A stretch of 64,000 nt of DNA from Trichodelitschia bisporula (lineage: Eukaryota; Ascomycota; Dothideomycetes; Phaeotrichales; Phaeotrichaceae), in contig ML996695.1 of NCBI GenBank assembly GCA_010356995.1, forward strand, positions 691,061 through 755,060, written 5' to 3'. Below are positions 4,826 to 40,258 of this stretch, in pieces (positions within the stretch are counted from its first letter, which is position 1; each line of letters opens with the position of its first letter). The position numbers were made by a program, and so were the translations under genes. The notes beneath the pieces were generated by a model. That model made no database searches. It saw only the letters and a program-made list of their open reading frames with translations, and had not been told where the DNA came from.

Positions 4826-6277
4826 TCAACCCATCAGCTGCCTGGGATGTCTCCGCGCGTGCACCCTCCTCCATCCACCTAACCCCCTCTGTCCATCAGC
4901 AGCACCAGGGATCGATGTTGGCCGAGCTCCACGAAGCGTGCGCCACGCGGGGCCCCCGCCCCTCTGCGAGCTCCGTGGAACGACGAGGTCGGTCCCGGGA
5001 GCGGAAGCAATGAAGCCAGAGCTTGTATTGGGGAACGGAGTCGGGGCGCTGGGATTGGGCTGGACGGCAGACAGCGGCGTGGTGGGACCACCAGACGCGG
5101 CAGTGGGCAAAGAGTTCACGTTGCCGTTGCCGCCGTTAGGGTGCGTGAACGGAGTGCCATCAGTGCCACCGAATGGGTTGCCGCTGGCGGCGAAGCTTGG
5201 GACGGCTGGGGTTCCATGAGATTTGGTGGGGTTGGCGCTGGGGAAGCCCGTGCCCGGGAAGGCGGTCGGGACGGCCTTCGAGCTGGATGTCGGGGCGGCG
5301 GATGGAGTGCTAGATCCACTCGCACGCGCGCCAGGCTGGAACACCTTCACGTAGTTCACGAGCCAGTACGCCTCTTTGAAGGCCGCGGGATTGTTGGCCA
5401 CGTAGTCATTGCAAGTCGCTGCCTTCTGGCTGCACACGGCGTCCGAACCCCAGACACCGGCATCGCCAGCCCACTGGCCGCAGAAGGTGGTGTCGAAAAT
5501 TATGGTCTGTTGTTGAATGGCCTTGGTGAAATCGCAAGAACCCTGGAAATGCGCCTGCGGAATGCCCCAGCCCGAAGGGTCTGGGTTGCCGTAGGTGATG
5601 TCTGCGGGAATCGCGTTGCGAGGGAAGTGGTAGACGGAAATGGAATCCGATGTCCACAACGTCGCATAAACACCACCGCCTACGGCGTTGAAGCCATCCC
5701 CATAGGTGGTAGTGTCATGGGAGTCGATAGCACAGCCCACGTTGGTGCCTTGGCCAGGCGCGTGGATGTCGCAGTTGGTCGTACGTACCGTGCCAGCCAT
5801 ATTGCTCGTCTTGGTGATAGAGCAGCCGGGGTTGGTGTGCAGCGTCATCGCGTTGGTTTTCCCGGAGTTGACGCCTTCGATGATGTCGATTTCACCGTTT
5901 GAAGGCCAGTTGGGGCCGATGGTCCAGTACGCCGGCCACGCGCCGCAGATGCTACCCGGCATGTGCGCGATATCAGCGATGATAAGCCCGCCCGTATAAG
6001 TCTTTTTGGACTCGAGGCGCAGACTCGGGCGGCCTTGGGGCGTGACGTTGATGTGGTCGACGCCAAGATAGGCGCCGGATGCATTGTTCATGATTAGACC
6101 GGCGGACTGCGCCGACGGACGGTCGAGCATCTTGACGAAGCCCTCGGTTGGGTCCGGTCCGGAGTAGAAATTGAACATGTCAAAGAAATTCGAAGGGTTG
6201 TACTCATCCTGGAGGACATAGCCAGCTAGTCCTGTTGGGATGGAGGAGAGGGCAACGATCAACGCTGAGAAATGCAT
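4826..6277 (-). CDS. secreted GH16 endo-beta-1,3(4)-glucanase
   Basis: Single-exon gene for about 483 aa. The start was chosen at 6277 because it opens a typical signal peptide (MHFSALIVALSSIPTGLAG); the frame is open further upstream but without a secretory signal. The GH16 catalytic motif GEIDIIEG lies at about residues 128-135 (nucleophile E129, D131, acid/base E134), preceded by the conserved WPAYWTIGPNWP stretch. After about residue 330 the protein becomes a Ser/Thr/Pro/Gly-rich tail, as in wall-associated GH16 enzymes. By family knowledge it hydrolyses beta-1,3 or mixed-linked beta-1,3/1,4-glucan outside the cell or in the wall. All catalytic residues are present and the frame is unbroken, unlike the GH16 copy at 8-14.7 kb. 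I see no clear hydrophobic GPI signal at the C-terminus; the last ~40 residues are basic and Gly/Arg-rich, so the true end might differ. Confidence 0.88.
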   Translation of the reverse strand: MHFSALIVALSSIPTGLAGYVLQDEYNPSNFFDMFNFYSGPDPTEGFVKMLDRPSAQSAGLIMNNASGAYLGVDHINVTPQGRPSLRLESKKTYTGGLIIADIAHMPGSICGAWPAYWTIGPNWPSNGEIDIIEGVNSGKTNAMTLHTNPGCSITKTSNMAGTVRTTNCDIHAPGQGTNVGCAIDSHDTTTYGDGFNAVGGGVYATLWTSDSISVYHFPRNAIPADITYGNPDPSGWGIPQAHFQGSCDFTKAIQQQTIIFDTTFCGQWAGDAGVWGSDAVCSQKAATCNDYVANNPAAFKEAYWLVNYVKVFQPGARASGSSTPSAAPTSSSKAVPTAFPGTGFPSANPTKSHGTPAVPSFAASGNPFGGTDGTPFTHPNGGNGNVNSLPTAASGGPTTPLSAVQPNPSAPTPFPNTSSGFIASAPGTDLVVPRSSQRGGGPAWRTLRGARPTSIPGAADGQRGLGGWRRVHARRHPRQLMG

Positions 6278-8154: not shown

Positions 8155-8651
8155 TTACAACATATGCATTTCCGCCAAATCTCGCACCGCTTCATGCAAA
8201 ACGTCGCCCAGCATCCGTCTTTTTCTTTGCGTCAAGTAGTTCATCGGAGTAGCATGGCACACAAAGGCTGATGAACTGCTCGAACCCCCTACAGTAACGG
8301 TTACCACGCCACCACCACCTCCACCGGATGCCGTAACAGTTATTGGCGGCGCGATCTGGGTGACCACTTCTGTGAAGGACTGTGACAAGAGTGCACAATA
8401 AACACGGTCACCGAATGTAGCGTAGTCACTTGCTGAAATGGTTGTAGGGACGGAAACAGATGTCATGATGGTGGTTTGGACAGTGGAGATCGAGGTTACT
8501 GTGGCCGTGACCGTTTGCTGGCTAACCACAGTGAGGTATTGGATGGTAATGACTATCGAGGGAACGACGGAAGTATAGATCTCGGTGATAGTGCCGAATA
8601 CAGTGGTCGGGAGGCCGGGACCAGTTCCGGGTCCCGTGCCTTGCGTTACTG

Positions 8652-8905
8652 TCACAACGCCGGTCCCGGGTCCAGTACCAGGTCCAGTACCAGATCAAGT
8701 GCCAGGCCCAGTACCAGGCCCAGTGCCAGGCCCAGTACCTCCTCCAGTGCCCGGTCCAGTGCCTGATCCAGTACCTTCTTCAGTTCCTGGTCCAGTACCT
8801 TCTCCAGTACCTGGTCCAGTGCCGGGGCCAGTGCCAGGGCAAGTACCGGGGCCGGGGCCAGGACCGGTGCCAGGACCGGTGCTAGGTCCCGTTCCAGAGA
8901 ATTGA
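8652..8905 (-). repeat. coding minisatellite, (GTGP)n
   Basis: Imperfect 12-bp repeat units encode Gly-Thr-Gly-Pro on the minus strand, with variants such as GTEEGTGSGT. The tract lies inside the broken GH16 mosaic, between the last apple-like module and the Val/Thr-rich tail. Low-complexity Gly/Pro/Thr linkers of this kind usually act as flexible spacers in wall proteins; that role is inference here. Confidence 0.8.
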
Positions 8906-10859
8906 ACAAATGAAGTTGAAAATGAAGAAGATATCGCCGAAGAAGGAGAAAATGATTCCGAAGAAAAGGACGAACTCAGAGGAGAAGTGACTACACTAAT
9001 GCTGACGCTGATACTCGAATTACTGACTGGATCCTGCATTGTCACCAACTTGGCGCTGTCCACACCACGCCTCAGCTGCGGTACCGCAGCTTGCGATTTC
9101 AAAGCAATTGACCCCCGGAGTCGGCTCGTAAAAGGAAACCCCGCGACACGGACTCCCGACCTGGAAGTGTTGGATATTGTACACGTCACAGGCCGTGTTG
9201 CAGTCGCCGAGGCTGGCTTGGTGCTGCACGTCAATATCGGGATCTAAGTACTCGACGCTGCAGTATATTTCGTACACCATGCCTGAATAGTCAGTATATC
9301 GTCGACCGACAGGCTCATCGGGGCAGTTGGGGAGGTCTGACAATCCGCCCGTCACGCTTGACGTTAGGGTATTGGAAACGGTGCTCATTTGGCTGCCGGT
9401 TGGAGAGGCGGTGATGCTGGTGAGAACGCAACTACAGGGAACAACTACAACTGTTGGTGTAAGAAAGCAATCGTGGCAGAGTGATCCGTACATGTTCCCT
9501 GCGCAAGCTGCGGAGCTTGAGCTGACTGGGCCTGAGCTCGAGATTGTCGTTGAGACCAAGGCCGTTTCCACACAGCTTGATGAGCTTGGGCACTCCGTGA
9601 CTAACAATGTCGCGAACACTGTTGTCGTCATTCGTGGTGGCGCTGCACATATGGAGTGCGTGAGAGTAACGGTGCTCATTGGATGCCTTGAGCATACATG
9701 CACGGAATCGTTTCAGTGATGGTGTACGTAATGGCGCGTGGAGTGCCATTGCACATGCCGGATGTGGTTGCTGCTCTATGTCAGACCATTCGAAAAATAA
9801 GAAGGATGAACTTACACATATATGTCGATATCGAGCTGGTGGATAGCGATGACGACGTCATGGTGCTCATTGAATTAATGGCAGTCCCAGTAATTGTGCC
9901 GCTCATTGGAATCCTTGTCGACACACTTGTCGACATGCTTGACGAGGATCCCGGGGTCTGCAATATGATCGCGATGTTTGCCATATCGAGAGTCGGGAAG
10001 ATGTTCGTGTTTACACAAGTCTCAACGAATTGGATGGTGGTGTTGGTCGAAGCTGGTGTGATTACGTTGGTCACATATTTGACATAGGTGGAACTGATTG
10101 CGCCGAGATTAAGTGAGAAAACCTCCCGCCCATCATATAGGACCGTGAGAAGACATCCGCTGGCCAACTGGCGCCTCATCTTCCCGAAGTAGAAATCGGC
10201 ATTTCTCGCCATGAACGTGATGGTTTGCGGCGTATCCGTGGGTGTTCCGTTGACCGGGATGGTCAGTTCTCCACTGATTATTTCGGGGTCGGGCATGAAC
10301 TGTGCAAATGATCCACCCGTTGCTGGATCATTCAGAACTTGGACAATGGGGCTCAAAGTAGCCGTTGAAAGGTCGACAGTGGAGGCTATAGGTGAGGAGG
10401 TAGAAGCTGAAGAAAAAACCATCGTGGAAGAGAAAGACGAAGTTGATTGAACAGAGCTTACGGCGCCGGATCCTGTGGAGCTTCCAGGAAGAACTGTGAC
10501 GGTGCCAATCGTTGATCCCAAATCACTAACAGATGATGAGTATCCCAGAGCTGTTTGACTACCCTGAGTTCCAGATGACACTGGGCTTGCCGGAATTGAG
10601 GACGACGTTAGCAAAGAGGCGCTGCTCGATAGCGGTGATGCGCTTGAAGTAGTTTGAAAAGATGATGTGCCGGAGATCTGAGATCCTGTGTTTGTGGATG
10701 TTCCAGAAGTCCCTGTTTGGGAGGTGCTCCCAGCTGATGAACTTGCAATGGATGAAGAACCCAGCAAAAGCGAGTTTGTGGAGCTTCCAGTGGACGAACT
10801 CGTCCTCGAAGAAGATCCCACATGGGAGGTGGGGATCGAGTAAGAGCCTCCACTCGAAG

Positions 10860-11060
10860 ATCCTGCGGTTGGAGAAGAACTCCTAGCCGAAGAACTTACG
10901 ATTGATGGAGAGCTGACAGTTGAAGAACTCAGGGCTGATGAAGAGCTGGCAGTTGAAGAGCTCAGGACTGATGTAGAGCTGATAGTTGAAGAACTCAGGG
11001 CTGAAGTGGAGCTGACAGTCGAGGAGCTAAGGGATGAAGAAAATATGACATCTGAAGAGC
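10860..11060 (-). repeat. tandem Ser-rich coding repeat
   Basis: Imperfect units of about 33-36 bp encode variations of ALSSSTVSST on the minus strand (for example ALSSSTISSTSVLSSSTASS). They form part of the Ser/Thr stalk of the GH16 mosaic gene. The in-frame stop at 11083-11085 sits just upstream in coding order. Confidence 0.7.
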
Positions 11061-12254
11061 TTTGCGATGAAGAGCTCGCAATCTACGAAGAGCTTCCAAC
11101 TAAACTCGATCCCGACAAATGGAGACTCCGCGAGGATGAGCTGCTTGATATCGATGCCGAGCTTGTCGCTTGAGAGCTCACAATCAACGTGGAAGTTCCA
11201 GCCTGTGATGTCGTTCCGCTCGTCGTCTGGGAGCTTAAGGTTTGTGATGATGCACCGCTCGATGTCTGTCCTGAACTGGTTGAAGTTCGCGAGCTTGACG
11301 AAGATGAAACAGAGCTGCTGGAAAGGTTGCTAGGGGCGGCCATCTGAGAATTAGAGACTCCCAAACTGCTCTTTTGGCTTGAACTAGCAAGCGTGCTAGT
11401 GGTCGATGAAGAAGACGAAGATATCAAGGACATAGAGCTGCTACTGCTCGGCAAGACAATAAGCCGGGCCGCTTGCACTCCAGCGTTGACACTCCATGTC
11501 CCAATCGTGGCTTGAGGTAACATTCTCTAGCCGCCAAATTCACACCAGCGCAGCCGGCAGTTGACGCGCAGCGATCGATGCAAGTCTGGAACGATGCTGC
11601 CGATTGGCCGGTGTTAGCCATGTTGCCAGAAGAGTAATTGATCCCACAATCGATATGGAAGGTGCCCGCGACAGTAACGTAGTCCGTTTGGTTAGACTGC
11701 AGGCAGATGGGTACTGTGGCAGACGGAGAAGCCGAGCTTGATGTCGTCGTCATTGAGAAGGACATTTGACAGGCTGCCCTGCATGCTTGAGGTTTGGCTC
11801 AGGGGCGTACTCTGTGAAGACGTAGACGAAGGCAGGATGTTCGAGGATTGCATAATCGAAGCCGTTCTACTCGACGATTGGGTTGTGGGCGACGGAACGA
11901 GGCTGGTCGGTGTTCCCGACGACGTTGGGGAAAGCGAGGATGAGGACGACATCCCAGAGGACGAACTGGAACCTACGCTAGTCGATGATGTTACAGAGGT
12001 AGTGGAGCTGCTGGTAGAAGCTGTTGACAATGATGGACTCGTTGAGGACGCAGATGATGTTGATGACAGGGAAGATGCTGTGGACGATGCCAATGAAGAG
12101 GTCGCAACAGACAAACTAACACTTGACGTTTGCGAAGAACTCGAAGGGCTTGAGATCGTCTGGCTATTGGAGGCCGAGGAAGATGTAGATGATGCGGTAG
12201 AGCTTGATGCCGTTGAAGTCGAGCTGGAAGACTGTCCAATGGTGCTTGAAGATT

Positions 12255-12420
12255 GAGTGGTAGATGTCGAATATGAAAGCGCCGAGATTGACGATTGCAC
12301 ACTTGAAATCGAGGACTGAACACTCGAAATGGACGATTACACACTCGATATCGACGACTGTACGCTTGAAATCGACGATTGCACGGAAGAAGTCGACTGG
12401 ACAGTGGAGCTCGAAGTCTG
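12255..12420 (-). repeat. tandem SVQSSIS-type coding repeat
   Basis: About five to six imperfect 24-bp units encode SVQSSIS-like heptads or octads in the Ser-rich stalk of the GH16 mosaic. One unit carries TAA (12337-12339) where its neighbours have a CAG or CAA glutamine codon, so this stop most simply arose by C to T change within the array. Confidence 0.7.
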
Positions 12421-14676
12421 AAAGGAGGAGCCGGTTGACTGGACCGAGCCCGAGGACTGCGTGCTCGAAGTCTGAGTGGAGGAGCCGGTGGACTGGACCG
12501 AGTTCGAGGACTGCATGCTCGATGTCGATGAACTCGAACTTGCCGAGGACTGCGGATTGGAACTGCTGAGACTCTGGCTTGAAGAAGACGAAGACATCTG
12601 ACTCGTACTGCTTGACGAGCTGCCGGAACCGCCCCTAGCGATCACCCGCGCACCCCATATTCCACTGTTCGAGCTCGCGGCATTGATGGCGCTCTTGAGG
12701 TAGCACACGTTGGCCCGGATTGTCATGATACGCGCACGCATCGCGAATCCCCAGCACATAGTTCCATGCATTGTTGGAACACGGTGATACCACTAAAAGT
12801 CACGAGATTGCCGCTCGATGTGTCCTTGGAGCATTCGACCACAAAGGAAACTCCTGGCGAATTGACACTGATGTAGGTTGTGCCATTGGAGCCTGGGCAC
12901 ACAGGGCTTGTGGCTACGACTGTCGCTGATGTTGACGACGTGGACGAGCTTTGAGTGGTTGTAGAGGTGCTAACAGATGAGGAAACTGCGGACGATGATA
13001 CGGAGCTGCTTGAGGAGCTGGAAGTGCCGGCAGATGAAGAGACTGAAGACGAAGACGTTGAGCTCATCGAAGAGCTGGAACTTCCAGAATTATGGCTTGA
13101 GCCAGAACTAAGTGACACGAGCCTTCCAGTACAGACCTGAGCATTGTGGACAACCGCCCCCACGCTGCTCTTAACGTAACAGGTCCCTGAGGGGCGCCGC
13201 AGACCCATACCGCGTCTATACAGCCGGGACGCGTCTCACACAAAGCGATGCAAGCAGGAAGATCCGAGGTGTACACGGGATTTGGGGCGGCCATTGACCC
13301 TCCCGAATGATCCCACCCACATTCGATTGTGTAGACGGATCCGGAGCTTGATATGTATTGCGTCATGTTTCCTTCAGGACAGCTTGCAACCCCTGATGCA
13401 ACCGGCACGGAAGATGATGCCAAAGAAACAGTGGAAGAAGATGGTGTTCCGGTAGAAGCAGAGGTTACACCTACGCCTACACCCGTGCTTGCTGAGCCAG
13501 TGCTTGCCACAGGGATGACGGAAGAAAGGGAAGACGTTGTTGAGGAAGACACCGAAGAAGAGCCAGTCGTCTGATTAACTTTCAGCAAGTTGATTACCCA
13601 ATATGCCTGCGTGAAGTTTTGAGGATTGTTGCCAGAAAAATCGACGCAAGAACCCCAGCCAGAGGCACCGGCTGTTTGGGGCACAACGATGCGGCATATG
13701 CGTTGCTAGCATTGTCTCCACAGAAGTCCGTGTTGATGACCATCTGGTGATTTGCGAAATGATTGTCGATCTGGCAATTTCCTTGGAATAATGCAGTTGG
13801 TGTTCCAAACTGACTGACATCCGGCGCCCCGGACGTGATACTGGAGGGGACGAAGCCTCTCGGGAAAAACCATATTCGAATGTAAGATGAGGTCCACTCT
13901 GTAGCGTAAACGCCTTCATCGAGTCAGTGATCGCTCCCACATAAACAGAATCAACGTGCGTACCGCCACTATTGTCGTTGAAGTTATAGCCATGATTTTG
14001 TGTGCTTGGGTCGGTGATGCTGCAACCAACGTTGTACCCAGGGTAATAGGCGCAATTATTCGTCTGCAGCGTGCCTGTCATCCCGCTGCCAGCGATGGTG
14101 CAATTCGGAGTCGTATGCAAAGTCATTGCGTTGTTCGTGTTGAGACTGACGCCTTCGATGATGTCTAGACCATTAAGCACTCATCCACAACCATAAAGCC
14201 TTGACGTACCTATTTCACCGTTGTTTGGCCAGTTCGGTCCCAGAGTCCAAAAAGCCGGCCAGGTTCCGCAGCCCACGGGCATATGTGAAAGGTCCAAAAT
14301 GAACAAGCCGTGGGTATAACTATTGTTACTGATCAGACGGACGCTAGGTCGCCCAGGTCCACCTCGCGGGTAAACTCCAGAGTAGTCCACCCCCAGATAA
14401 ACCGACGCATCCATGACGTTCTGAGCGTACCCATTGTTCATCGCGACGCTCTGGTATACGTATTGAACATGGCCGTGGGTCGGATCCGGCCCCTGACATG
14501 ATGAAAGAATTGGGACAGGTAATCGATGAGCTTACCGAATAGAAGGAAAACTTGCTGAAGAAGTTATTAGGCACGTAGTTATTAAGCAGAGAATATGATT
14601 GTCCTAAGACATGACAGGCGAAAGGAAGAAGGGAAAGCAATTCCTGCAGGCCAGGCACGGCGGCGGAGGATCGCAT

Positions 14677-15471
14677 TGTGGGGACTCCAGCGTAATCGAC
14701 AAAGACGGATGGCTTGCGGTAGGATCAATAAAGTGAAGGGCTGAAAGAATAGGATGAAGAAAAGTAAAGCAAGAGACGCGTTGTTGATAGCCATGCCCAT
14801 CGCATTCCATCCCTTTGCAACTGCGGCAAGGAGAAAGACATCAAAAGCCGAGCATTCTTTGCCGTGGCCCGATTTTTGCGTCTAGATGCATGTTAGCAAA
14901 ATTCCTGGATAACAGGTGGAGATGGCCGTAACGCAAATTATAAGCAATCACGCTTGAGGAATGATGAGGGCGAAGCTCTGCAGTCCGCACTGATGGTAAC
15001 TCTCGCCTAAGAAGGCTGTCATTTTGTAAGCGGTAGAGCTGCGCACCTCCGACGGGAATACCCAAGACATGGAGGTCCCGGCGGCCCTACTGCATGACCT
15101 TGACGGGGAGATATGCACTCTTTGAGCAATAGCCAGTTGCCTCATGTCGGTTGGGTCGCTTGAGCTGAAACTCACATGAACTCTCCCTCAAGTCAGCATT
15201 CTTCGGGATGAAGAAGACGAAGTATCAATTCGGTCTTCTCTTTCCCTAATAATGGATAAGGCGTCCCCTCCGTTTAACATACCACATCATCATCACATCA
15301 TCATCACACCCCAGTCGTTGGAGCAATGGACGAAAATTGGCGCAAGGCTTTCAATGGCAGGAAGCACTTCAGGAACCCATCCAAGCTCCTAAACCCACTC
15401 ATTTCCGTCCTCATGATCCCCATTCGGCCTCTGCTTGCAGTTAGTCGACAAGTCATATAGAGTTCGCACCA
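14677..15471. other. promoter side of GH16 mosaic and 3' flank of metalloprotease gene
   Basis: No gene seen. A short CATCAT/CATCACA-type run lies at about 15281-15312. The segment lies between the start of the minus-strand GH16 mosaic and the stop of the minus-strand metalloprotease gene. Confidence 0.5.
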
Positions 15472-17892
15472 TCAAACCCTCACCTCTCCGCATCCGCCGT
15501 CGGTGTTCCTCAACTCCTCCATGTCGAACGCCTGATCTGGAATGTCAACGTCTTTGTTCAACGTCAAGATCCCAAACTCCATGGTGCGAAAGTAGCTGCC
15601 ATTTGAATACTCGTTGCATCCAAAGAACCCGATGATCCGGTCCGGGGGCCCCGCCTCCAACGATGTAGTCTCACTCTGTTCCTGCTCGGAGAGGCACCCC
15701 CACGTCTGCCCGTCCGACGAGTGCACGCGTAGGGCATCCAAACCCCCATTTGCTGCCGAAACCTCAATCATTGTGATGTTTGTTGTGGCTGCAAAACTGC
15801 GCTCCTCCGAGCGGTGGCCTCCTGGGACAAAGTCAGCGTAAAGGCACGAGGAAGACACGACAGCGCAAACCAAAGTGATGTTGGTGTCCATCCCGATCCC
15901 ACCGTGGCCCGCAGGGGACCTTGTGCCCATCCTGAAACCCCACAACTGCGCCGTCGAGCAGAGCGCCAACCCGGCAGTCGATGCTTGTAGCCGAGACGAC
16001 TAATTCATCAGTTACTGAGTTTCTGGCCGCCCAGTTTGGAAGAGACCTACGCCCGCCGCTTGATGTCCGCTGTTTAAATAAAACGGCCCAACGCCAGAGT
16101 GGTATATCGTCACGGGTCGCAAGTTCCTGGCTCGCTACAGACGCCTTGCCTATTAGGACATCTGTGCCAGTGACCTTGACAGCACCGGTTGGGAAGAGCT
16201 GCCAAACATTGGAGAGAGTTTTCTCAACGCCATTCATACCCACAACCCGGACGTTCAATGCCTGATCGCGCGACCACATACTTTCAAGCTCGTGAAGCTG
16301 CCAATCACAACTCTTGCAGGGATTCTTCCAATCTGACAATGTTTCCGTTCCTTGGAACTCGACGATGGCAAGTCCTAAAGGCTCGCACGACATCTGAAGA
16401 TAGGGTCCGGTATTTGCGTACATCACTTTCACGTCCGGCATCTTGCTAAGGACACTGGAGTCGTACAGAGGGTCCATCGGCTGCCGGAAGTGCATGTGAT
16501 ACTTAAAGGAAAGCGCATCAAGAATATGCCAGCGTGCATCGTTCGGAGTGTCTGCCGTTACAACAGGGATACCAGGTTCGTTCCGTGCCTGGGATGGTGA
16601 GGTTGAAGAGAGAAAATTGCGTGCCCAATGCACGGGGTAGCCGCGTTCCATAATGCCAGAGCGATGAGGGGAGCCAAAAGCGTGGCCGGCCTTCGAAAAT
16701 TAGCCGGGTGATCCCGAGACGATGTCCAACGTCTGCACCCAGATGATCAACAGAATATCTTACCTCATGCAAAAAGGCACCTTGACCCACACAACACGCC
16801 TCCCACATGCTCAGACAGTCACCAGCATCATTACCCACGCCAGTGCCAGGCGCCCTTCCATCGGTTAAGGACGGTACTACCTCCTCTAAAAACCGAGGCC
16901 ACGAGTATGTCAGATGGCTACCAAACACGCCCAGCGAGATCCCATTGTCGTTTCGACAACCTAGCGCCGCATGCGCCAGAATCAAGCCGCTATTCGCATC
17001 GTAATGCGAGTCTAAAATCAAGCCTGCAACAACCGGCCGTGCATCTAGTCCCAGAGAACCACCAGCTTGGGCAAGTGCATCTGTGAACCACGAGTGTAGC
17101 TGATCTCTCCGGGTTCCATTTTCGTTCTGCTGCGCGACATCTGGATCACGGAGTTCCCGAACAGTCTGCGTAGCGGTTACGAGGTTGACTTTGGCTGTGG
17201 AACGCATGACACCGCCACCCTCCCTTGAAGCCAGATCGCCATGGGCAGCTTTGTTGACAAAGGTACGCGAGACTGTATCTGGCAGCCATTCCTCCTCTAA
17301 GTGGAAGGAGCGACGCCCTAGGCCTTTCTGTCGCATATCCTCGGCCGTCATGGCTTGCCACATGTAGGCTGTCATACGAAATTTGGCAATGGCGGCAGCG
17401 AGGTCAGAGTGTGCGTTGCACAGACCAGCGGATTTGGTCGACGGACAGTCGATCAGCAGGGGGGAATCAGAGGCAACTAGAATGGCGAGTTGGAGAGGAG
17501 GGGCGTGAAGCGGAGGGAAATAAGTGAGAGTAAGCGTTGTTGTCGATAAAACTCCTGAACTTGTATGAAGCGTCAAAGAGATAGTGTTTTCACCAGGAGA
17601 AAGGAAGAGGAGGGCTTTGAAGTAGCCTCGTGCGAGGGGCCATGTCTGATCGGGGAAGAGCTCGGCGCCCTCCGAGGAGAGAGTTCGGACCAGTATATAG
17701 GTTGATGATGGATCACTGGCGTCATCGGCTAAGTTCTCACAACGACCAGTGAGCAGTAAGCAGCGCTGCAGAATGTTAGGACGACATTTATAAGAAGCTA
17801 TGGGTTTTAACTTGAAAGATGACTTCGTCGTCCTCCACGTTGCCCAGAATTATCTGCACAGGCGCAGCAGCGGAGCGCTCTGGGATAATCAT
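15472..17892 (-). CDS. zinc metalloprotease (fungal Metallopep family, YIL108W-like) with jacalin-like C-terminus; one frame change
   Basis: The start at 17892 opens a short exon (MIIPERSAAAPVQIILGN...) spliced by an unusual GTTAAA donor to RCLLLTGRCEN, a join typical of this family. A second intron (about 16688-16764) splits the active site. Spliced, it reads HEAGHAFGSPHRSGIM, an HExxHxxGxxH zinc site (three His ligands, catalytic Glu) followed by the Met-turn-like SGIM. The family is a poorly characterised fungal zinc protease group; substrate unknown. The last ~165 codons resemble a jacalin-type lectin domain (GHGGIGMDTN..., then FFGCNEYSNG). They are in a different frame from the protease part: the switch lies at a G/C run near 15938-15941 on the plus strand. 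As read, the protease domain is complete and the lectin domain is replaced by about 25 unrelated residues. This may be an early stage of decay or a base-calling error. Confidence 0.75.
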
Positions 17893-18346
17893 AGTGTGTG
17901 ATGATCCAAATGGTTCAGATGACTAGCGGCCAATGGATCGAAGTCGTAGGAATGGCAAAGAAGACGGATCTAACAGTTAAATGAAAATCGAGTAGCAGAG
18001 GTTGGAGACGAAGTGTGGATGGAAAGCTGGCGCGTTGAACGCACACGAGAGACTTTACCCTTGGCGGTGTGACGACATTTGGCAGTGCAACGGCTACATG
18101 TAGGCAACTGCCCGGAAAGTCGTATCTTCAACGAAGCTGTGAAAAGAGTGCCAGATACAATTTAGGACTGACTTTTACGACGGAGTAGAGGATAACGTGC
18201 GACTACGTCCAATCAACCTAACACGCCGTCGTCACAGCAATAGTAAGGTTTGTCGTCATTCATCCCATCAGGGGGATAGCGGGTCCCGAACCATGATTAT
18301 CGCACGAACGACAAAAGCTAAACCGTAAATATCCCTAGTACGGACT
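17893..18346. other. intergenic, no gene seen
   Basis: This is the promoter side of the metalloprotease gene and the 3' flank of the broken GH55 gene. I see no open frame or motif worth naming. Confidence 0.5.
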
Positions 18347-21035
18347 CTATGGAAACTCAAAGACGGCCAGACTCTTCCCAAATGTGTTCAAATTTGCCCC
18401 ATTTGGAACCAAGCTCGTTCCGTCTACCTGGACCATATCATCCCTACCAATCGTGTACAAGCCAAATATCCAAACAGCCTCAGAGAGCTCAAGGCTGGCG
18501 GCGTTCTCTTGGCATGTGTGGGTGAAAAGGCAGGCTGAGTCGTAGTTCTGGAAGAACGAATACAACCCCGCTCCGTAGATGAACGCGTACGAGCTGTTGT
18601 ATACCCGCAGGCCCCACGTCTTGAAACAGCTGGACTGGAAGCAAGAGCTAAAATCGGGGTCGTTCCATGACGCTTTGGGTACGAATGGTTTGATAGCTTG
18701 GGGGTTGTCTTGCATGTATCTACAGTCTCGGGTAAGCCAACAACCTCACCAGCATCGCGAACACTTACGCAGTTTCCGACTGGATGTGCGAGAAGTATAC
18801 ACTCTTTGCGTTGGCCACCTGGTAGTTATAGAGCATGGAATGCTCAAACGACCCGCCAACGACCTATACCGCAGACCGCGATTCTACCAACAGGCCTCGG
18901 CCGTTGTAGATGTAGATCTGGTTATGGTCCGCGGCGTCCAGTTCGTGATCAGAGACCCAGCCCCAGTTGTTCTCCATATACAGCGATGCCGTTTCTGTGA
19001 CATGAAGGAGTAAAAAGGTCCCAATGCAATTGGGATCCGGGGTGTTGACTCTGATGGCAGGAGTCTTCGCGCAGGTATTCGACTGCAGCTGCGTCCCCGC
19101 CGTACCGCCGATGCGCCAACGGACATCCCACATGCCTTAGAACGGGGAATCAGCTCATACTCTCCATAATAATGTCGACCACGACCTACCGGCAGTTCCC
19201 TGACCGTCCTCGGCCAGATTCCACTCCATCATGATCGCTCCTGGTGCTGGCCCGATTGTCTCGAACAGGATGTCTTGCATCTCGACTCTCCCAGTATCCC
19301 CGCGGTTCCCAACTCGCACTGCCGGCTGCGGGTTGTTTATGTCCTGCCATATGGAGGAAGAGCCCTTCACCATGATGAGTGGCCATCCTTCGCCGATGAT
19401 CTTGATATTGGTCGGCACTTGGATTGTGTTGGTGATGACATATGCACCTTGGTCAATATACATGATCTGGTTCGCTCCCAAGTTATTCAGATATTCTGGA
19501 GGCAGGCGGTGTCGTCTGCCACGCCATCGCCTACGTATCCATTGTCCTTGGTGGGGACGAATGCGCTGACAGGGTAGCTATCGTATGTCGGCTTCCCTCT
19601 GTCAAAAATCCCACCGGCCGAGTTCAGGAGTGACGCCGGCTTAGGCAGTGGCGGGAAGCTCCCCTGGACGCATACTTGCTGCGCCTTCGGGATGTAGTAT
19701 ATTTCACTACCGTGATCGGGGAAGACTTACGGACCATAGTATGCAGAGTGCGACTGCCCTTGCATCTAGAAGGGCACGATCGAGCCACCCGGGAGTATGA
19801 CGGTGTCGTTGTGGTACGATATGGCGAGCTGGGCTCCGCGGAAGTCAAAATTATCGACTATCATAGTGCCGGCTGACACCGGTTTGATGGTGCAGTTGAA
19901 GTTGGTCACGATGGCTTGAGACACGTTGCTGAAGATCGTGTCGGCGATCAGGGCGGAGCCAAGCGTGGGGTTTGGCGGGTTTGCCGGGTAGATTCCAATG
20001 GGGCAGTTATTGATGTGGAGGCCCTCGAAGGACCAGAGCCAGTCCCAATTCATGCAGATAGCCGTCTGGCAGTTATTGAAGGTAAGGTTGGTGCTGGTAA
20101 ACTGCTGGTTCCTGAAGAAATTAGTTCTGAATCGCGTTCAGGAAGCCGACGCTCTCAACTAACCCGAGGAAGAAGCCCGTTCCACCCCCGTTGAAATGAG
20201 ATCTCGCATGAAGCCACCGGAGCCATTGTCCATAAAGATGCCTTGCTGGCGATTAGCTGCCCCGCCGCCGACGACCATGTTGAAGACGATGTTCTGCAGC
20301 GAGGTCGCCTGCGCAACCTGCCAGTGGATACCGATTCCGCGCCCCATTGGCACCTGCGTGAGGTCCAGGACCAAATTGCGCACCTGGCGGAAGAAGTTGT
20401 TCTGATTCGCACACCAGCTTGCACCACCAGGATAGTAAACATCCGAATCGAGGACACCAGCGCCATTGAAAGTCGGATGTGCCCTGATCGTGGGCATGCT
20501 AAGGGCATCTCCGACGACGATACTATTATATACATGATGATGGGATCCGTCACAATATATGTTCCCGGAGGGAAGTAAACGATCGCTGGCAAAGTGGTGG
20601 ATGATTCACATGGATAAACGGGGGTGATACTGGCCCAGGCAGCGGTTGCCCTCAGAGAAGGCCCGGTTAGTGGCAGCAGTATCGTTTGTAACTCCATCGC
20701 CTAGTTCATGAGGTGTTAGGAGCGTGCGCTGCAGTCTGTGGTGGATCTACCGATGGCTCCATAGTCTTTCACATTGCGGAATAAGATGTAAGAAGTGTTG
20801 CCATATGCAACGGTGCCCTGTCTCCTGATCTGCGCAAACCACCAGTTCGATCCGGGAGCCACCAATCGCTCATCGAGGGTGTGTAATTCGTCGGCCCTGA
20901 TCAGCCGTTGCTTTGCAGATTCCCTCCTGTCAGCGCGCACTTTGGCATGAGGAATACTCGACTTACCACAAGGCTGATAATGGAAAAACAGACAAGCCAT
21001 ATGAACGAGAGAGGTGCACGCTTAGATGCAAGCAT
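18347..21035 (-). pseudogene. broken GH55 exo-beta-1,3-glucanase
   Basis: The start at 21035 gives a signal-anchor-like N-terminus (MLASKRAPLSFIWLVCFSI). Several introns of about 40-60 nt follow. The body shows the duplicated pectate-lyase-like beta-helix of GH55: FRNVKDYGAIG|DGVTNDTAA, YFPPGTYIV, SMPTIRAHPTFNG and NLVLDLTQVP in the first half; GYVGDGVADDTACLQN, YIDQGAYVI, GEGWPLIM and the C-terminal Cys-containing FSSCFQSSCFKTWGLRVYNS in the second. Family members release glucose or short products from beta-1,3-glucan outside the cell. The frame changes about four times (near 20620, 20525, 20200 and 19490). Two in-frame TAG codons (19766-19768 and 18864-18866) stand where homologues have Trp. 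All exons and splice sites are otherwise recognisable, so loss looks recent. A run of base-calling errors could explain the frame changes but not easily the two Trp-to-stop changes. Confidence 0.82.
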
Positions 21036-21454
21036 GGCTAAAGTATGACGTGGGAGGGTTTTCCACACGGTTGGCACGATGTAGGTACCCTCAAATGTTG
21101 GGGTACGTCCGTGTCTTTGCAGTTGGAGATGCTTCTGGGGTTCCAGCTATCGGGAGAATTCGCAAGTTGACTTCTCTGCTCTATACGCGGCACGAACGCG
21201 TAGACTGCTGGGTGCATAGGCTGTATTCCGCAAGATAACACAAAGCACGCGTTCAAGGGAATGCACATTTAGACGACGATATCCATTCGTACCATTGACC
21301 TGGCCTGAAAGCAAGGGCCACACCGCTGACCCTGAGAACGGAAATCAGTTCAGCTCGTCCCTGGCGCCGATCTGCGGAGCATTCCCATTAGTATGCATTC
21401 TCAAAGGCATAGCTGTAACTCATCAACATACCACTTGTAGATGCTCGTCCATTC
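21036..21454. other. promoter side of GH55 and 3' flank of CDC26
   Basis: No gene seen. Both flanking genes are on the minus strand. Confidence 0.5.
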
Positions 21455-21652
21455 TCAGTTCCTCCCGCCCTGGGCCTGGCTCTGGTTCTGGCCCTCCGGT
21501 TTATTCAACCCCTCGAAGAACTGCTTCTTCGGTATCGAGTTCTTCCTCAGCCCCTGAGCCCGCAGCTCTACCAGGCGCGCCTCGCATTTCTCGTCAAATT
21601 CGGTGATGTCGCTTTGGGTGAGCGTGAGAGTTGTAGGGTGGCGCCGAATCAT
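21455..21652 (-). CDS. cdc26: anaphase-promoting complex subunit CDC26
   Basis: A 65-residue protein. The start at 21652 was chosen because CDC26 proteins begin directly with the M-[IL]-R-R-x-P-T motif, here MIRRHPTTLTLTQSDITEFD; an earlier in-frame Met exists at 21736. The N-terminal motif binds the TPR groove of the APC/C subunit Cdc16/APC6 and stabilises it, which is the known role of the family. The rest is a short helical, Gln/Asn-rich tail. No intron is needed. The gene is divergent from the plus-strand gene at 22004, with 351 bp between starts. It is intact although it lies between broken genes. Confidence 0.83.
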   Translation of the reverse strand: MIRRHPTTLTLTQSDITEFDEKCEARLVELRAQGLRKNSIPKKQFFEGLNKPEGQNQSQAQGGRN

Positions 21653-22003
21653 GATGCAGTTTGCCGAACAAGATGCTGCGTAAAATGATTGGATATGTAG
21701 AGTTAGAGACGCAAAGGCTTCGTGGATCAGCTTCATTCAGAAAAAGGGCGGTTTCCACGCACCAAACAGATACTTTGATATTCACAATCGAAAATGACGC
21801 CCGCCACTTTGAGGTTCACTTGTTTTTGGTGATATGTTATGTATCCGGCGCTGATTGGCGCTTCCTACATGGTACCCGTAGCCCTTGTGGCGCATATGGC
21901 GCATGTGGCTGGTGCACAGGTACCGCCAAGCTATTTTTCAAACTGCAACTGCACATCCAACATCACGACCTTTCTCTCGCCAACCCCCTCAGGTCATCTC
22001 ACC
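21653..22003. promoter_or_regulatory. divergent promoter region, CDC26 and unknown mitochondrial-type gene
   Basis: The space between two divergent start codons should hold both promoters and 5' leaders. The plus-strand frame of the right-hand gene is open through part of it (from 21839), so an N-terminal extension of that protein is possible. No specific binding site was identified. Confidence 0.45.
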
Positions 22004-23203
22004 ATGCGCAAATTACCACTTCGACCCTCAATGGGGTTTGCCCGTCCGGCGCCGACTTCTAACCGACACTTCCGCACCACCCCCGCCCTCGCAGCTGAAG
22101 ACGATGCACCGTCCACCCCCCGCCCTTCTTCTCCCAAGAGCGACAAACTCGTCACCCGCCGCCGAACCAACGCCTCGGCCGCCGCGGCAGCAAAACTGCA
22201 ATCAATCCGCCAACCCAGCGCCCAACCACGCCTCCGTGGCCTCATGGTCTCGGCCCCAGGCGGCATGGTCCCCGTCAAAGCGGGCTCGCTCGTTGAACCG
22301 CAGGCCCAGAACCACAGCCCGGGACTCGTGCGCCGCGTCGTTGACCCAGGGCAAGGAACCGCATCCCGCGATGGTGCGGCCCGGCCGCCCTTTGTGCGCC
22401 GCGTGCGCCGCGACAATGCCGAGGGCGATAAGCCGCGGTTCCGCGTGCAGGCCCTGCCGGGGAAGCGTGCGCCTGGCCGGCGCGGGCCGGGCAGAGCCTC
22501 CGACGGCGCACAGCAGAAAACCAAGCGGCCACGACGCGGGACGAGCATTGACGAGGCCGAGGACGATCCGGCCGCGGACGCAGCGCAGGAGGAGGAGCTA
22601 TTAGAGACCATCGACCGGGCGAAGCAGGCCGAAGCAGCAGCACGAGGGCCCATGAAGTACGCGCCCACGGAGTTCAAGCTGCAGGACCTGGCCACTGGCC
22701 GGGTGGCCACGGCGGCAGGGACGCTAGGCGCGATCATGGAGATGGATGAGACGATGGGGCGGCTGGCGCGGCGGGCGGATACGAGCTGGGCGATTGACAA
22801 TGATATTGCGCGGCGGCTGTTGCGTGGCGAGGTAGTGCGGTTTAAGGACGATGCGGAGCGGGAGCGCATCGTGGCACTTGCCCAACAAATGTCCGAGGCG
22901 ACGGCGGACAAGATTGCGGTGCAAAAGGGAAAAGCCGTCAAGCCTCTCGATGTCGGCTTTGTGTCTGTTGGCGGCGAGATGCGCAAGGAACTCGTTGACA
23001 AGGTTATGCGCGGGAAGTACGAGTTGGCGCCCGCAGCGCACGGCAAGGACCCCAAAGCGAATAACCTCACGCATGTGCAGCGGCATCTGCAGCTCAATAG
23101 CACGTACTCGCCGTCTCAAGCACAGAGCATGATGGCTACGATTGAGCAGTTGTGGGGAGCGGCTCAGGCCCCTGCACCGAAGGGGAAGGTTGTGCGCCGT
23201 TAG
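22004..23203 (+). CDS. unknown fungal protein, probably mitochondrial
   Basis: An intact single exon of 399 codons. The start at 22004 was chosen because it opens an Arg/Ser-rich, acid-free presequence-like stretch (MRKLPLRPSMGFARPAPTSN) typical of matrix import, ending near FRTTPALA. The frame extends upstream to 21839 with a hydrophobic segment, an alternative start. Residues ~30-230 are low-complexity, very basic and Arg/Pro/Ala-rich. The C-terminal ~170 residues (from about KYAPTEFKLQDL) are compact and helical, with RRLLRGEVVRFKDDAERE and VDKVMRGKYEL; I take this as the conserved part. I do not recognise a named family. Mitoribosome- or mitochondrial RNA-related roles are possible but unsupported by any motif I can name. 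Confidence 0.7.
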   Translation: MRKLPLRPSMGFARPAPTSNRHFRTTPALAAEDDAPSTPRPSSPKSDKLVTRRRTNASAAAAAKLQSIRQPSAQPRLRGLMVSAPGGMVPVKAGSLVEPQAQNHSPGLVRRVVDPGQGTASRDGAARPPFVRRVRRDNAEGDKPRFRVQALPGKRAPGRRGPGRASDGAQQKTKRPRRGTSIDEAEDDPAADAAQEEELLETIDRAKQAEAAARGPMKYAPTEFKLQDLATGRVATAAGTLGAIMEMDETMGRLARRADTSWAIDNDIARRLLRGEVVRFKDDAERERIVALAQQMSEATADKIAVQKGKAVKPLDVGFVSVGGEMRKELVDKVMRGKYELAPAAHGKDPKANNLTHVQRHLQLNSTYSPSQAQSMMATIEQLWGAAQAPAPKGKVVRR

Positions 23204-23749
23204 GTGACGGGATTGTATCATAGACGTGGACAGAAGCCATGGCCTTTCAGCTACGCATGATATGTCTGCTTGATTTTTTGTCGTGACATAAGTCGCTTGA
23301 TTAGGGAGCTGGGTGAGAAGGCGGCCATGTGGCGCAAGACCTGGAGCATTGAGAGTTCAGTCTCTCGGCCCTTCGACTTGTAGACACACAGCCCGTAATG
23401 TGGAGCACGTCTATGGGCCCTTGATAACTGCTCACAGGTGTAATAGTGAGAATTCGTACTGTATGGATGTAAAATGGGAAGGTCGGGGGCGCGGGTTGTA
23501 GTGATCGTGATGTTTTCGTGGAGCTTGATATCAAATCGTGAAAACAGAGACTAGAAATATCTTTTAAATCAACACGCTATCATGTCCGGCTACAAATCTG
23601 CTGTAAAGCTTGACATGGACAGCTGGCATTACTACACCCCGAGATATAGGGTATCGAGGACCGGTTCGACCATGAAACTGAGGCCATCAAACCGGCCCAA
23701 AATATCAATTCGCCTTCAAATCGTCAGCAACTGAAGCGAAATCATGAGC
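23204..23749. other. convergent intergenic stretch
   Basis: It holds the 3' flanks of the plus-strand gene ending at 23203 and the minus-strand mlh2-like gene ending at 23750. No gene seen. Confidence 0.5.
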
Positions 23750-26426
23750 TTAGTCAATAACGATAACCTCCTTTCTCCGAGAGATTGCTGCGGAAATATC
23801 CTTTTCCATACTTTCGGTCACTTCAGCCTTGGTACTGTCTTTCAGTCGAGCACCCAGTAACTCAACATCACTTAGAGCCCACTGCCGCATCTCTTCAGGA
23901 GTGGCTCGCATCCGGAAAGTTGATATCTCGCTAGTCTCCTCGTGCAAGCGCATGGAGGTTCCAGCGACCGCAATGTGGGCCTTCCGACCCTTGAGCTCAT
24001 CTACCGAGACCATCGCGCATATTTGCAAGCGGTGCATCTGGAAATCATCCGGAATTCGCTCCAGAGGTATATTGCGTGTCGATTTTCTCCGTTTCGCCAG
24101 CGGCAAACGCGGTGAACTCGGCGCGGCACCCCCTTTGGCCCAGACAAGGCTGCCGAATCCTTCATGTGACTGCAGGGTTTCTGGCGCAGGAGGAAGGGCC
24201 ACCGGGCCGGGGTCTACGCTTGACGTCGCCGCGCCCGCACCACCACCGTGACAAGCACCGGGCTCAGAAATCCGACGATCGGATTTGCAAGGATGTGCAA
24301 TCGACTGGTATTCAGGGCCACCTTGTCGAGAGCGTGCTCTACCCTTGCTCGCCATGGCAGCCGGTGCGCAGCTGTATCCGCCAGTTACCAGGCTGGTACC
24401 GGGGTCCACGGCATGACCGGTATGCGATGAAGGTGACGAATATTCGTTCTCGTAAGCTGCTGATACCGGGGCCGCGGCTCCGACGGTGCGGTCAGCTCTT
24501 CCAGAAGGCGTCAACGGGATGCGAATGTCCTGACTCGAGGATGCACTGGGCATCTTTTTGCCGTGTGACCTGCTCGGTGGTACATTGATGGGCGTCCATG
24601 AGGCCGCTCCAGCAGGACTTACGACGCCCAGAACAGGGTTTTTGTACGGTCGGTGAAGCCGCAGCTTCTTCTCCTCGAATCGTTTCTGGAACGGTGAACG
24701 GGGAGCCGGTGAGGAGCGCCGGGTGTTAGTAACCCCCAGTCTGCGTTGAGGTTCTCCCGAACAGGACTTACGAACGTGGGGCGTGGGGGTCCTGTCAGAT
24801 ACCCGTTTTGAAAGCAATCAAGAGATTGGGACTGGCTTGGACTAGAGCTCACGGGTATGGAGCACGCCTTCATGCTCTGGGAGGTACCAGGACGAGGATT
24901 TACGTTTGGACGGTTTTTACGCCCTAGGTCTGGTCGGGCCGAAGCAGCCATCTTTGCAATGGACCATGGCTTGATCGCTGAGGAGCCGTATGGATTTTCT
25001 TCCTCGTCGTCCGATGGAGGTTTAGCCTGTTCGGCGATGGCCTCCAGCTCTTCGTCCACCTCATACATGCTGGAAGCTATTGGAGCAAGATATGGATCCT
25101 CCGAAGTGTCAGTGTAATCGCACATCTCCCCTTGTCCTTGTACTGGAATGCGATCAGAGGAGGATGCGATACGCATAGGAGGATCCGAAGCAACATCACA
25201 CTCGGCCTCCCAGTCGCCAGGTTCGGATGGATTGAAGCCCTTATGTTCGGTTAACCGGTTATTTCCCGGTGGCATCAGCTGGACCCGCTCGGCTAGCTTT
25301 GATGGATAGGCAGCATCAAAGGATAGTCGCGTCGCGGCATACAGCTTTGAGCGGTCGACGAAGAGCACATCGTCCTTAGCTGGTTCGATGTTACCGTCAT
25401 AACTCAACTCCGGACACATGATGTTGAGGCAAATGAACGGCTGCTTAGTCTTTCGGAAGTATTTGTTGCACGCTCGGAGCCTCTCTTTGTGGATAGAGAT
25501 GAGCTCGTTCATATCCTTCCCTCTCGATGACACTGGTCTGGAATCAATCGCAAGGAATTGGCCCAATCCACACAGCATCGAGGCGTCAGCATCTGGTTTG
25601 GGTATGAAGGCGTGAAACTCGTATCCATCAACCATCGCCGAGAAGAAAAAACCCTGTGATGTACATTGCTTCTTGAAGATCTGCGATGCTGCGCCGTCAA
25701 CCTGACCACTGCCTGGTTTAGGTGCATACGTGAAGTCGTCCTTGCTACTCTTCACCTTAAGTACTTTCATGGAGAACCGTACCTTCGGCCGCGCGAGGGC
25801 ATATGCACAGAGAATGCTCTTGATGTTAGCAAGACACTTCGGCGCATCCTTGTTGGCGAGCTGTTTCCGAACTGGAATTGCCTTGAAGAAGTCTGTGATG
25901 CGGACCGTAGTGTCAGCAGGATGGGAAACCATTTCTCTCCTGGACAGGTCAATAAAGCCGGACAGAAACAGCACGAAATCGCCACACGTCTCCACTCACC
26001 CCTCAGATCCGTCTTCCCCCATCCTCAGTTTAACCCCAACAACCTCTCCCTCAATCCTCGTTGTAACCAGCACCAACCCGGACACCTCGACAAGCGCACT
26101 TAACGCCTCGCCCCTAAAGCCGAGTGACTTCCCACCAAGCCGCTCCACCTCCACACAATCACGGATCTTGCTTGTACACCATCGTCACCCGACTATGCCT
26201 CGATCCCGCGGTGCAATCCCATGCCCATTGTCGCGCACTTGAATCACGTCGAGGGTGTTGGCTGAGATCTCAACGCAACAGATGAGGCTCGCGCATCCAG
26301 AGCATTGTCTATTAGCTCCTTGACAGCGGAAGCTGGGGTTGCGAGAAGTTGGGTTGACGTGAGGCGCTGCGCTGTGGGTGTGGGAATGGATAGCGACGCT
26401 GGATCGGCGTGGACGTCGAAGGGCAT
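23750..26426 (-). pseudogene. mlh2: MutL homologue of MLH2 / human-PMS1 type, broken in the ATPase domain
   Basis: The start at 26426 gives MPFDVHADP. The GHKL ATPase motifs follow: KELIDNALDA (motif I, catalytic Glu), DNGHGI (II) and GFRGEAL (III). After an intron of about 60 nt (donor GTGAGT) come TTVRITDFFKAIPVRKQ and the transducer part (QFLAIDSRPVSS, EPAKDDVLF). Later exons are separated by introns with good splice signals. The C-terminal tail (IPLERIPDDFQMHRL) is short and lacks the DQHA endonuclease motif of PMS1/PMS2 and MLH3, which argues for the MLH2 (human PMS1) branch: an MLH1 partner with an accessory role in mismatch repair. Two breaks lie between motifs I and III: a one-base frame loss near 26273-26279 (after ALDARASSV) and an in-frame TGA at 26185-26187, just before RWCTSKIRD. 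Everything downstream is open and well preserved. Recent loss, or two local sequence errors, would fit. Confidence 0.75.
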
Positions 26427-36400: not shown

Positions 36401-36754
36401 GAAACGAATGGCACGGACTATAAAACGGCAGATATGAACAAGGATGGTTACGGACGAACCCTCGTTCGCCCGGCTTGAGGGTGGGGGAGAAAATAAAGAA
36501 GGAAAAAGGACAGGTCAGGGAGACAAACCGGTCAAAGGCGATGGAGGCGCAGGAAGCAATATAAAAACGCTGTTATGATGAAGGGTTGTGAAGGGAAAAG
36601 GTGGGGAAGGGAGGGGTGAGGTGAGGTTTGGGAATGCGGGAAGGAGCTATGATGCTCAATGTAACCGTACCTGTTCTTCCAATGACAACCGCGACGCCAT
36701 CTCCCGCGCACGATCATCAGGTTTCTCCAGCGAGTAGAGTTTCTTTGCCGTCAT
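33449..36754 (-). CDS. GH3 beta-glucosidase with PA14 insert, non-secreted type
   Basis: Four exons: 36754-36671, 36156-36031, 35939-35461 and 35237-33449, summing to 2,478 nt (825 aa) with no frame problem. The N-terminus MTAKKLYSLEKPDD has no signal peptide, as in intracellular GH3 enzymes; an in-frame upstream Met exists at 36904. The join LSLEEQ|VSLLAGADFW matches the family. Substrate-binding and catalytic landmarks are KHFVGNEQE and TVISDWTGT, the Asp of SDW (about residue 235) being the nucleophile. A PA14 domain sits between the two halves (about 34700-34420, GRLFLNGELFIDNW), then the C-terminal (alpha/beta)6 part (VVLVGLDNEWESEG) and a fibronectin-III-like end (EVVQAYIRD, KELQAFAKVFLEPGE). 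It should release glucose from beta-linked oligosaccharides such as glucanase products. Introns 1 (514 nt) and 3 (223 nt) are long for this window. Confidence 0.93.
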
Positions 36755-37930
36755 GATGGGCTGTCCGTTGGACACAGGGCCCTTTGCTGAGTATGCGAAT
36801 GAAACGCTTCTATGGCAGTCGAGCTGGCCACGTGATTCGAGTTTTATAGAAAATGATGAGTTATCACCGGCGACCACGTCAACTGCAAGGTCGATATCGG
36901 TCATAGCTGGCGCCGCGTGTGTGTGGGAGTCAAGGGAGAGGCAGCCTCCGGCCGATTTTACCTCCCAGAAAGATGAAAGACGAAACTAGTGAAGCCGATG
37001 GACCGCAGACTGATTGTTGAGGTAGTGTTAGGAACAGTTGGTCGTGGAAGAAGGTTGCAATGTGTGAAGGACGAGAGTTGAATGGCGAGAGAGGGGAACG
37101 AGGCAAGATATTGAGAAAAAGGCGCGATGGGACCTGGTGCGGGATGTGAGGGTGGAGAGGATGTTGAGAGGGTAGAGGATGATGAGGGCGAAGTGAAGGA
37201 ACAAGGTGAGACAGATAGGGAAGAGGGAGGCTGGACAAGAAGAGGCGAGAGAGTAAGAGAGAGGATGAGACGGTAGGACTAACGCAAGTCAAGTGGTGAA
37301 GGAAGCCATCCTTTAGTACTCGTTCTGGGGCACGACAGAGGCAGCCCTTGATGCGGAAGAAGTTATTATTATTGCGGTCCAGCTGGGCGACACATCTGGT
37401 CAGGGAGCTTGGTGCTTGAGGAAGACGCGTACCTTGCACTTAGTCGAAGAGGTAGAGGTTCCAAACGGCGGTTGCACGGCGGCTGTGCCATTGGTGAGCG
37501 CGACTAACCAGAGGAAGGCGCGAAAGGACATATGGCCGGGTACATATCGATATTCATCAAGCCATCGCTGAGTCGAGCGGCCACAGCCCGCCAATCTTGG
37601 AAAGGCGTGAGCAATTGGGGTGGGGGGGGGGGTGACAGCGTCAGTGGAGCTATACCGATGCCAATGCAGGGAGACAGCAGGACTGAGCCTGGGTGATATA
37701 GACATGGATGAGCCCGGGGGAGGGGTGTATGTGTGGGGGGGATTATGGGGGAGGGGGGTTAGAGGGGAGGTGAAGGGGAATAGAGAGGGGGAGGGTGGAG
37801 GTGAGGTGGCCGAAGGCACGGGATGGAAGGTCAAGGCAACTTAGCGGGCTGGCGTCATGGGGCGAAAGAGGGCGTTGAACCAAAAGAGGTGTAGCCTTGT
37901 TCAAGATCATAGGAGGCTGAATGGGGAAGG

Positions 37931-37972
37931 GCTGGCTTGGGCTTGGGCTGAGCTGGCTTGGGCTTGGGCTGG
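37931..37972. repeat. 21-bp tandem duplication
   Basis: Two copies of a 21-bp unit (GCTGGCTTGGGCTTGGGCTGA, second copy with one change at the end), themselves built from GGGCTT-like hexamers. Non-coding as far as I can see; it lies in the long gene-free stretch. Confidence 0.75.
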
Positions 37973-40213: not shown

Positions 40214-40258
40214 GACGAGGGAGTTAACGACGAGGGAGTTAACGACGAGGGAGTTAAC
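40214..40258. repeat. 15-bp tandem repeat, three perfect copies
   Basis: Three consecutive identical units of GACGAGGGAGTTAAC, followed by a further GAC. It lies in gene-free DNA. Each unit contains the hexamer GTTAAC. A simple minisatellite is the plainest reading; spaced binding sites are possible. Confidence 0.9.

Follow-up and report, generated by a model that had tools for sequence, protein, structure and literature searches.

Probable gene-by-gene decay of three genes among intact neighbours in a genome window of Trichodelitschia bisporula

We analysed 64,000 nucleotides of the dothideomycete Trichodelitschia bisporula (Phaeotrichales; contig ML996695.1 of assembly GCA_010356995.1, forward-strand positions 691,061 to 755,060). 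This whole stretch is called the window, and all positions are given in its coordinates. Judging from sequence comparison, three genes at 8-27 kb, a GH16 gene with PAN-like domains (GH16-PAN), a GH55 gene and an MLH2-type MutL homologue, are very probably genuine pseudogenes, each decayed on its own after selection on it ceased. The firm lesions in the three genes together numbered seven frameshifts and seven in-frame stops; counting weaker ones as well raised this to 11-12 shifts and eight stops. The initial annotation had proposed about 13 frame changes and seven stops in four decayed genes. Its counts come close to our upper figures, and three of its genes were retained, whereas the fourth, a metalloprotease, proved to be intact.

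Because short introns mimic frame changes in raw sequence, we used a spliced protein-to-genome aligner that weighs GT/GC-AG introns (donor, acceptor and branch-site scores) against frame changes of one or two bases and in-frame stops. The assembly from which the window was taken comprised 25.65 Mb in 30 contigs. From the 119 non-self homologs listed per gene, 40 were aligned for GH55 (P0002-P0041), eight for the MLH2-type gene and four for the metalloprotease. The public models of these genes matched the window at every aligned residue: 669/669 for the GH55 model P0001 (of 673), 654/654 for the MLH2-type model P0121 and 760/760 for the metalloprotease model P0241.

The GH55 gene, of the glucan 1,3-beta-glucosidase type, carried half of the firm lesions. 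Its features were as follows.

18350..21035, minus strand: predicted GH55 glucan 1,3-beta-glucosidase-type pseudogene, from spliced alignment to 40 homologs
20750-20701, 20163-20112, 19189-19136 and 18768-18720, minus strand: homology-supported introns (34/40 for the first, 40/40 for each of the others)
20611..20638, minus strand: frameshift 1, which can be placed anywhere within this range (40/40 homologs)
20517..20535, minus strand: frameshift 2 (40/40 homologs)
20194..20197, minus strand: frameshift 3 (40/40 homologs)
19489..19495, minus strand: frameshift 4 (40/40 homologs)
19766..19768, minus strand: in-frame stop (39/40 homologs by default, 36-39/40 over four settings)
19727..19729, minus strand: in-frame stop in a variable stretch (37, 36, 34 and 25 of 40 homologs over four settings)
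18864..18866, minus strand: in-frame stop at a fully conserved column (109/109 homologs identical; stop called in 40/40 at each setting)

All four frameshifts recurred in 40/40 homologs under each of four penalty settings. The stop at 19729 was the most sensitive to the choice of setting: at the intron-friendliest one it was called by 25/40 homologs, and 10 alignments took one of two introns there. The alignment to the Tothia fuscella protein P0002 spanned residues 32-829 with 564/780 identical. The gene thus combined full-length homology to a functional family with several lesions beyond those that credible introns could explain. Three of the four stops in the GH55 and MLH2-type genes lay one base from the majority residue (109/109, 100/109 and 77/105 homologs), and the fourth lay one base from a residue carried by 31/91 homologs.

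Apart from its lesions, the GH55 copy was well conserved. Private changes at invariant columns numbered 5/161, one of them a stop, as against 5/161 in Tothia and 16/172 in Microthyrium, so that no raised missense rate was found at conserved sites. The branch length was 0.24 versus 0.25 for Tothia, and a cruder count of changes at conserved columns gave 8/181 for the window copy versus 15/203 and 28/205 for its two nearest kin. This degree of preservation suggests that the death of the gene was recent, if the gene is truly dead. Four other GH55 loci found in the genome (C21, C1, C13 and C23), aligned by the same method, had no frameshifts and no stops, with 0, 0, 5 and 8 introns, respectively. 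In a quick tree with long branches, they fell outside the 16-row clade holding the window copy. The window copy lies in its own Dothideomycete clade, and what was lost seems to be one ortholog rather than a recent duplicate.

We considered whether the genes still function, with introns that went unrecognised, or alternative splicing, behind the frame changes. This reading is correct for the metalloprotease, as it is for several of the frame changes in the other genes, and the public GH55 model P0001 is spliced in that way. However, P0001 has 673 amino acids compared with 757-829 in five relatives, and of its 10 introns just three agree with the homologs (signals 8-12). The P0002 alignment starts at 20910 and so overlaps the start-proximal intron 20966-20869 (signal 7), which the alignments of the other four relatives do not reach. 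The remaining six, all with weak signals (1-5), overlap the seven GH55 lesions or come within about 12 bases of them, and one of the six is the fourth homology-supported intron in shifted form. Together they excise 123 codons that can be aligned to homologs, 32 of which show at least 97% identity over 109 sequences, and the homologs align straight through all six. They are best read as gene-caller artefacts bridging a dead gene, and splicing as a general account of the lesions is extremely improbable.

The second gene with confirmed lesions was the MutL homologue.

23753..26426, minus strand: predicted MLH2-type MutL homologue pseudogene, from spliced alignment to eight homologs
25999-25940, minus strand: intron (8/8 homologs)
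26276..26277, minus strand: frameshift in the N-terminal ATPase domain (8/8 homologs)
26185..26187, minus strand: in-frame stop in the ATPase domain (8/8 homologs)

A further frame change near 24.7 kb was left out of the firm count. There, 3/8 homologs called a shift and 5/8 an intron of some kind, with one of the five also calling shifts, and P0121 uses a strong-signal intron (24771-24686) chosen by none of the eight. Changes at conserved columns reached 15/91 (16.5%), above the maximum of 7.3% among 105 homologs. Private changes numbered 12/80 compared with 3/71 and 4/72 in two relatives, or 11/80 compared with 2/71 and 3/72 when another reference pair was used. On these rates, selection on the MLH2-type gene has probably been relaxed for longer than on GH55.

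A truncated product without the N-terminal ATPase part could still be in use, as a long open frame of 458 codons follows both firm lesions and P0121 begins in it. The change rate is raised downstream of the lesions too, however, and the ATPase domain is generally known to define MutL proteins; a functional truncation is accordingly quite unlikely.

The assignment of this gene was based on similarity and on the rest of the genome. PF01119 was matched in the window open reading frame (ORF), and PF02518, PF13589 and PF01119 are precomputed for most of the listed homologs. The DQHA endonuclease motif, a feature of PMS1 and MLH3, was sought in six homologs of the window gene and absent from all of them (6/6), and it was present at the C6 locus of the same genome. 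Apart from the window gene, no locus of the genome strongly matched an MLH2-type protein. Weaker MutL matches were found at C20 (MLH1-like), C6 (PMS1- or MLH3-like) and C12, along with six MutS-type loci. The C20 locus ends in FERC, which we take to be a mark of MLH1-like proteins. The missing motif, the other loci and the source name of P0199 point to an MLH2-type gene, of the family of human PMS1.

The third gene was a mosaic of a GH16 domain, PAN-like domains and Ser-rich repeats.

8155..14676, minus strand: predicted GH16 and PAN-like/Ser-rich repeat mosaic pseudogene, from the paralogs at 4826-6277, C20 and C3, from P0045 and from ORF breaks
14535-14493, 14209-14165 and 13963-13914, minus strand: homolog-supported introns
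13668..13680, minus strand: frameshift in the GH16 domain (3/3 in-genome paralogs and P0045)
13195..13201, minus strand: frameshift in the first PAN-like domain (P0045)
12700..12725, minus strand: probable stop (12723) and frame change in the second PAN-like domain (ORF frames only)
12337..12339, minus strand: in-frame stop inside a 21-base tandem array, frames continuing in register
11083..11085, minus strand: in-frame stop in a Ser-rich stretch, frames continuing in register
8695..8697, minus strand: in-frame stop inside a 12/36-base tandem array, frames continuing in register
4826..6277, minus strand: intact GH16 paralog used as comparator, 483 codons in one open frame

Both tandem arrays that hold stops have a period that is a multiple of three. 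Weaker frame changes near 12.71, 11.77, 11.50 and 9.69 kb were seen in ORF frames only and are considered probable. Near 11.50 kb, one segment runs unshifted to 11493 and another puts a shift at 11668; elsewhere a shift is placed at 9148. Near 9.03 kb, what looks like a frame change may be an intron of 41 bases. No GH16 match was obtained from Pfam even for the intact paralog, and in the mosaic Pfam returned PAN matches alone, below the cut-off, in 2/7 pieces. The GH16 label comes from PDB matches, 3wdt and 2cl2 among them. A search for a second copy with the distal piece 9781-11082 matched only the piece itself, and this piece had no PDB match. A further weak GH16-like match lies on C1, outside the three other GH16 loci compared.

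The genes interleaved with the three damaged ones, and those to their right, were then compared with them.

15392..17892, minus strand: intact PF12044 metallopeptidase (4/4 homologs with introns only, 0 shifts, 0 stops)
17811-17766, 16763-16691 and 15870-15822, minus strand: metalloprotease introns
21455..21652, minus strand: CDC26 (APC subunit), open (PF10471)
22004..23203, plus strand: 399-codon gene, open, between CDC26 and the MLH2-type gene

What had been taken for frame changes in the metalloprotease were introns, and the public 760-amino-acid model P0241 also aligned with introns only. Intron 16050-16000 was used by 4/4 homologs and not by the public model, and 15483-15431 by the public model only. 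PF12044 matches lie on either side of intron 16763-16691, across which the HExxH zinc motif is read as HE-AGHAFGSPH in a continuous spliced frame. CDC26 and the 399-codon gene were indeed clean, as first annotated; Pfam gave no confident family for the latter. For the core genes to the right, likewise described as clean, the statement stands in part: the SIN3, GH3, myosin and Sec1-type ORFs carry Pfam domains unbroken within the ORF, some of them partial (other exons untraced), and 5/7 ORFs tested were matched (one below the cut-off), the other two having no match.

The distribution of the lesions bears on whether they arose through faulty sequencing or assembly of a low-quality part of the contig. 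Unbroken genes sit between broken ones, and the lesions keep to gene boundaries. The 14 firm lesions were spread more unevenly than gene length predicts, with P = 0.015 for eight local genes, P = 0.0052 after six paralogs were added (14 genes) and P = 5.8e-05 among the five GH55 loci; these values are guides, as gene lengths were rounded and the gene sets were picked after seeing the data. As regards repeat-induced point mutation (RIP), GC content in 2-kb steps was 0.511-0.593 over 8-27 kb versus 0.506-0.605 over the whole window, with no strong AT shift. Error would be compatible with the good conservation of GH55 outside its lesions and with shifts of one or two bases, a size set by the construction of the test. 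It fits poorly with an intact metalloprotease, CDC26 and 399-codon gene inside the same stretch, with in-frame stops in addition to shifts, with clean paralogs elsewhere and with the uneven spread. Unbroken genes between broken ones, together with stops beside shifts, favour true decay, and we regard error as unlikely. The initial claim of gene-specific decay rather than scattered error was thereby upheld, the weak P0001 introns and the conserved residues that they excise pointing the same way.

Several observations nevertheless weigh against true decay. Of the eight shifts examined for base runs, three lay near runs of at least four bases (one run of five, two of four) against a background of about 13%, which is a mild hint of indel error and not decisive; the eight include the change at 24717, since dropped from the count and not among the three. 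By a hand estimate, three stops under neutral drift imply about 12 changes at GH55 invariant columns, and four missense changes were seen, although the numbers are small. Single MLH2 homologs called more shifts (25227, 25088, 24663, 24619 and 24094), all in poorly conserved stretches, and two of the 12 private MLH2 changes (25653 and 25551) lie inside a 132-base stretch modelled publicly as an intron. The metalloprotease, though intact, tops its own family with 7/129 changes at conserved columns, above all 82 homologs (two relatives had 0/122), so part of the MLH2 excess reflects the long branch of the species. The distal GH16-PAN lesions were unconfirmed by homolog segments, the alignment ending before 12723. 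The GH16 loci on C20 and C3 had no frameshifts and no stops, with one of the five C3 introns having a weak signal. The intact but change-rich metalloprotease and the unconfirmed distal lesions make the case for true decay slightly weaker.

The initial annotation had explained the damage as a loss of glucan-degrading functions under relaxed selection, as in some symbiotic or specialised fungi; we weighed it as an adaptive loss accompanying a change of lifestyle. Two of the three dead genes are of glucanase type, and the predicted protein P0045 (Dothideomycetes sp. NU459, in the GH55 clade) unites both domains, hinting at a functional link. Yet 4/4 other GH55 loci and 3/3 other GH16 loci are unbroken, one of the latter adjoining the broken gene, and the third dead gene belongs to mismatch repair; MLH2 is not a glucanase. 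Trichodelitschia grows on dung, and the genus is not known to be a symbiont. Loss of glucan-degrading functions is therefore not supported as the explanation, and an adaptive loss of this kind is improbable.

P0045 does bear on the history of the pair. It combines parts of GH55, GH16 and PAN type within a single predicted protein, and in the window the GH55 and GH16-PAN genes keep this order on one strand, separated by the intact metalloprotease. The fusion in P0045 may be false, made from neighbouring genes. Whether real or false, it suggests an old linkage of GH55 and GH16-PAN, and the pair may have shared a fate.

Under ordinary decay, selection would have ceased on the GH16-PAN, GH55 and MLH2-type genes separately. 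Small indels and stop-creating substitutions would then have built up separately in each gene, whereas the metalloprotease, CDC26 and the 399-codon gene would have stayed intact under purifying selection. GH55 and GH16-PAN were perhaps a linked module at one time. We infer that the lesion bases are true of the organism and were fixed through relaxed selection and not adaptation. It is also conceivable, if very unlikely, that MLH2 loss weakened frameshift repair in the lineage and helped indels to break other dispensable genes, in which case the GH55/GH16-PAN pair would have been among the first genes lost to a mild mutator state.

Three features lie apart from these genes. An unbroken GH3 beta-glucosidase ORF (33449-35278, 609 codons, with GH3_C, PA14 and Fn3-like domains) was found 7 kb past the decayed stretch. 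GC skew at 36000-44000 swings from about +0.3 to -0.35. At L040 7088-9504, left of the window, reading frames resemble a putative Zn2Cys6 transcription factor, judging by a motif.

The analysis records three probable cases of gene death in a fungal order that is sparsely represented, and corrects the claims of metalloprotease loss and of wholesale loss of glucan degradation. The public GH55 model is shown to be patched with unlikely introns. Both P0001 and P0121 look like models of genes that are broken, patched in the first case and truncated in the second, and could mislead those who use the databases. If the lesions are true and reads agree, the locus would be a natural example, on a small scale, of decay proceeding gene by gene next to intact genes.

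Van der Burgt and colleagues have reportedly worked on fungal pseudogenisation. No description of the T. bisporula assembly was found in the titles and abstract openings among the literature matches listed. Pseudogenes of carbohydrate-active enzymes (CAZymes) and loss of MLH2 are both already known in fungi, so the present case is a new example of known processes, namely ordinary gene decay. Compared with the GH55 exo-beta-1,3-glucanases of PDB entries 5m5z and 3eqn, both of which are matched over nearly the full length by the Tothia relative P0002, the window copy is interrupted seven times. According to excerpts of the published account, the dothideomycete Cladosporium fulvum has pseudogenised CAZyme genes, including two of six GH78 and one of two GH88 genes (PMC3510045). 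As there, carbohydrate-degrading enzyme genes are broken here while family members remain (PMC3510045). The losses in C. fulvum, a plant biotroph, are pectinolytic, whereas here beta-glucanase-type genes are affected in a dung fungus, beside a dead MLH2-type gene. The available sections of a study of MLH2 describe it as an accessory mismatch-repair factor whose deletion alone has no significant mutator effect in yeast, and report its loss in CTG yeasts, Lachancea and Basidiomycetes as well as homologs with stops and frameshifts in a few species (PMC4014439). Set against the losses described in those sections, the present copy appears to be decaying in Phaeotrichales, with its conservation measured and its assignment made by similarity and a missing motif.

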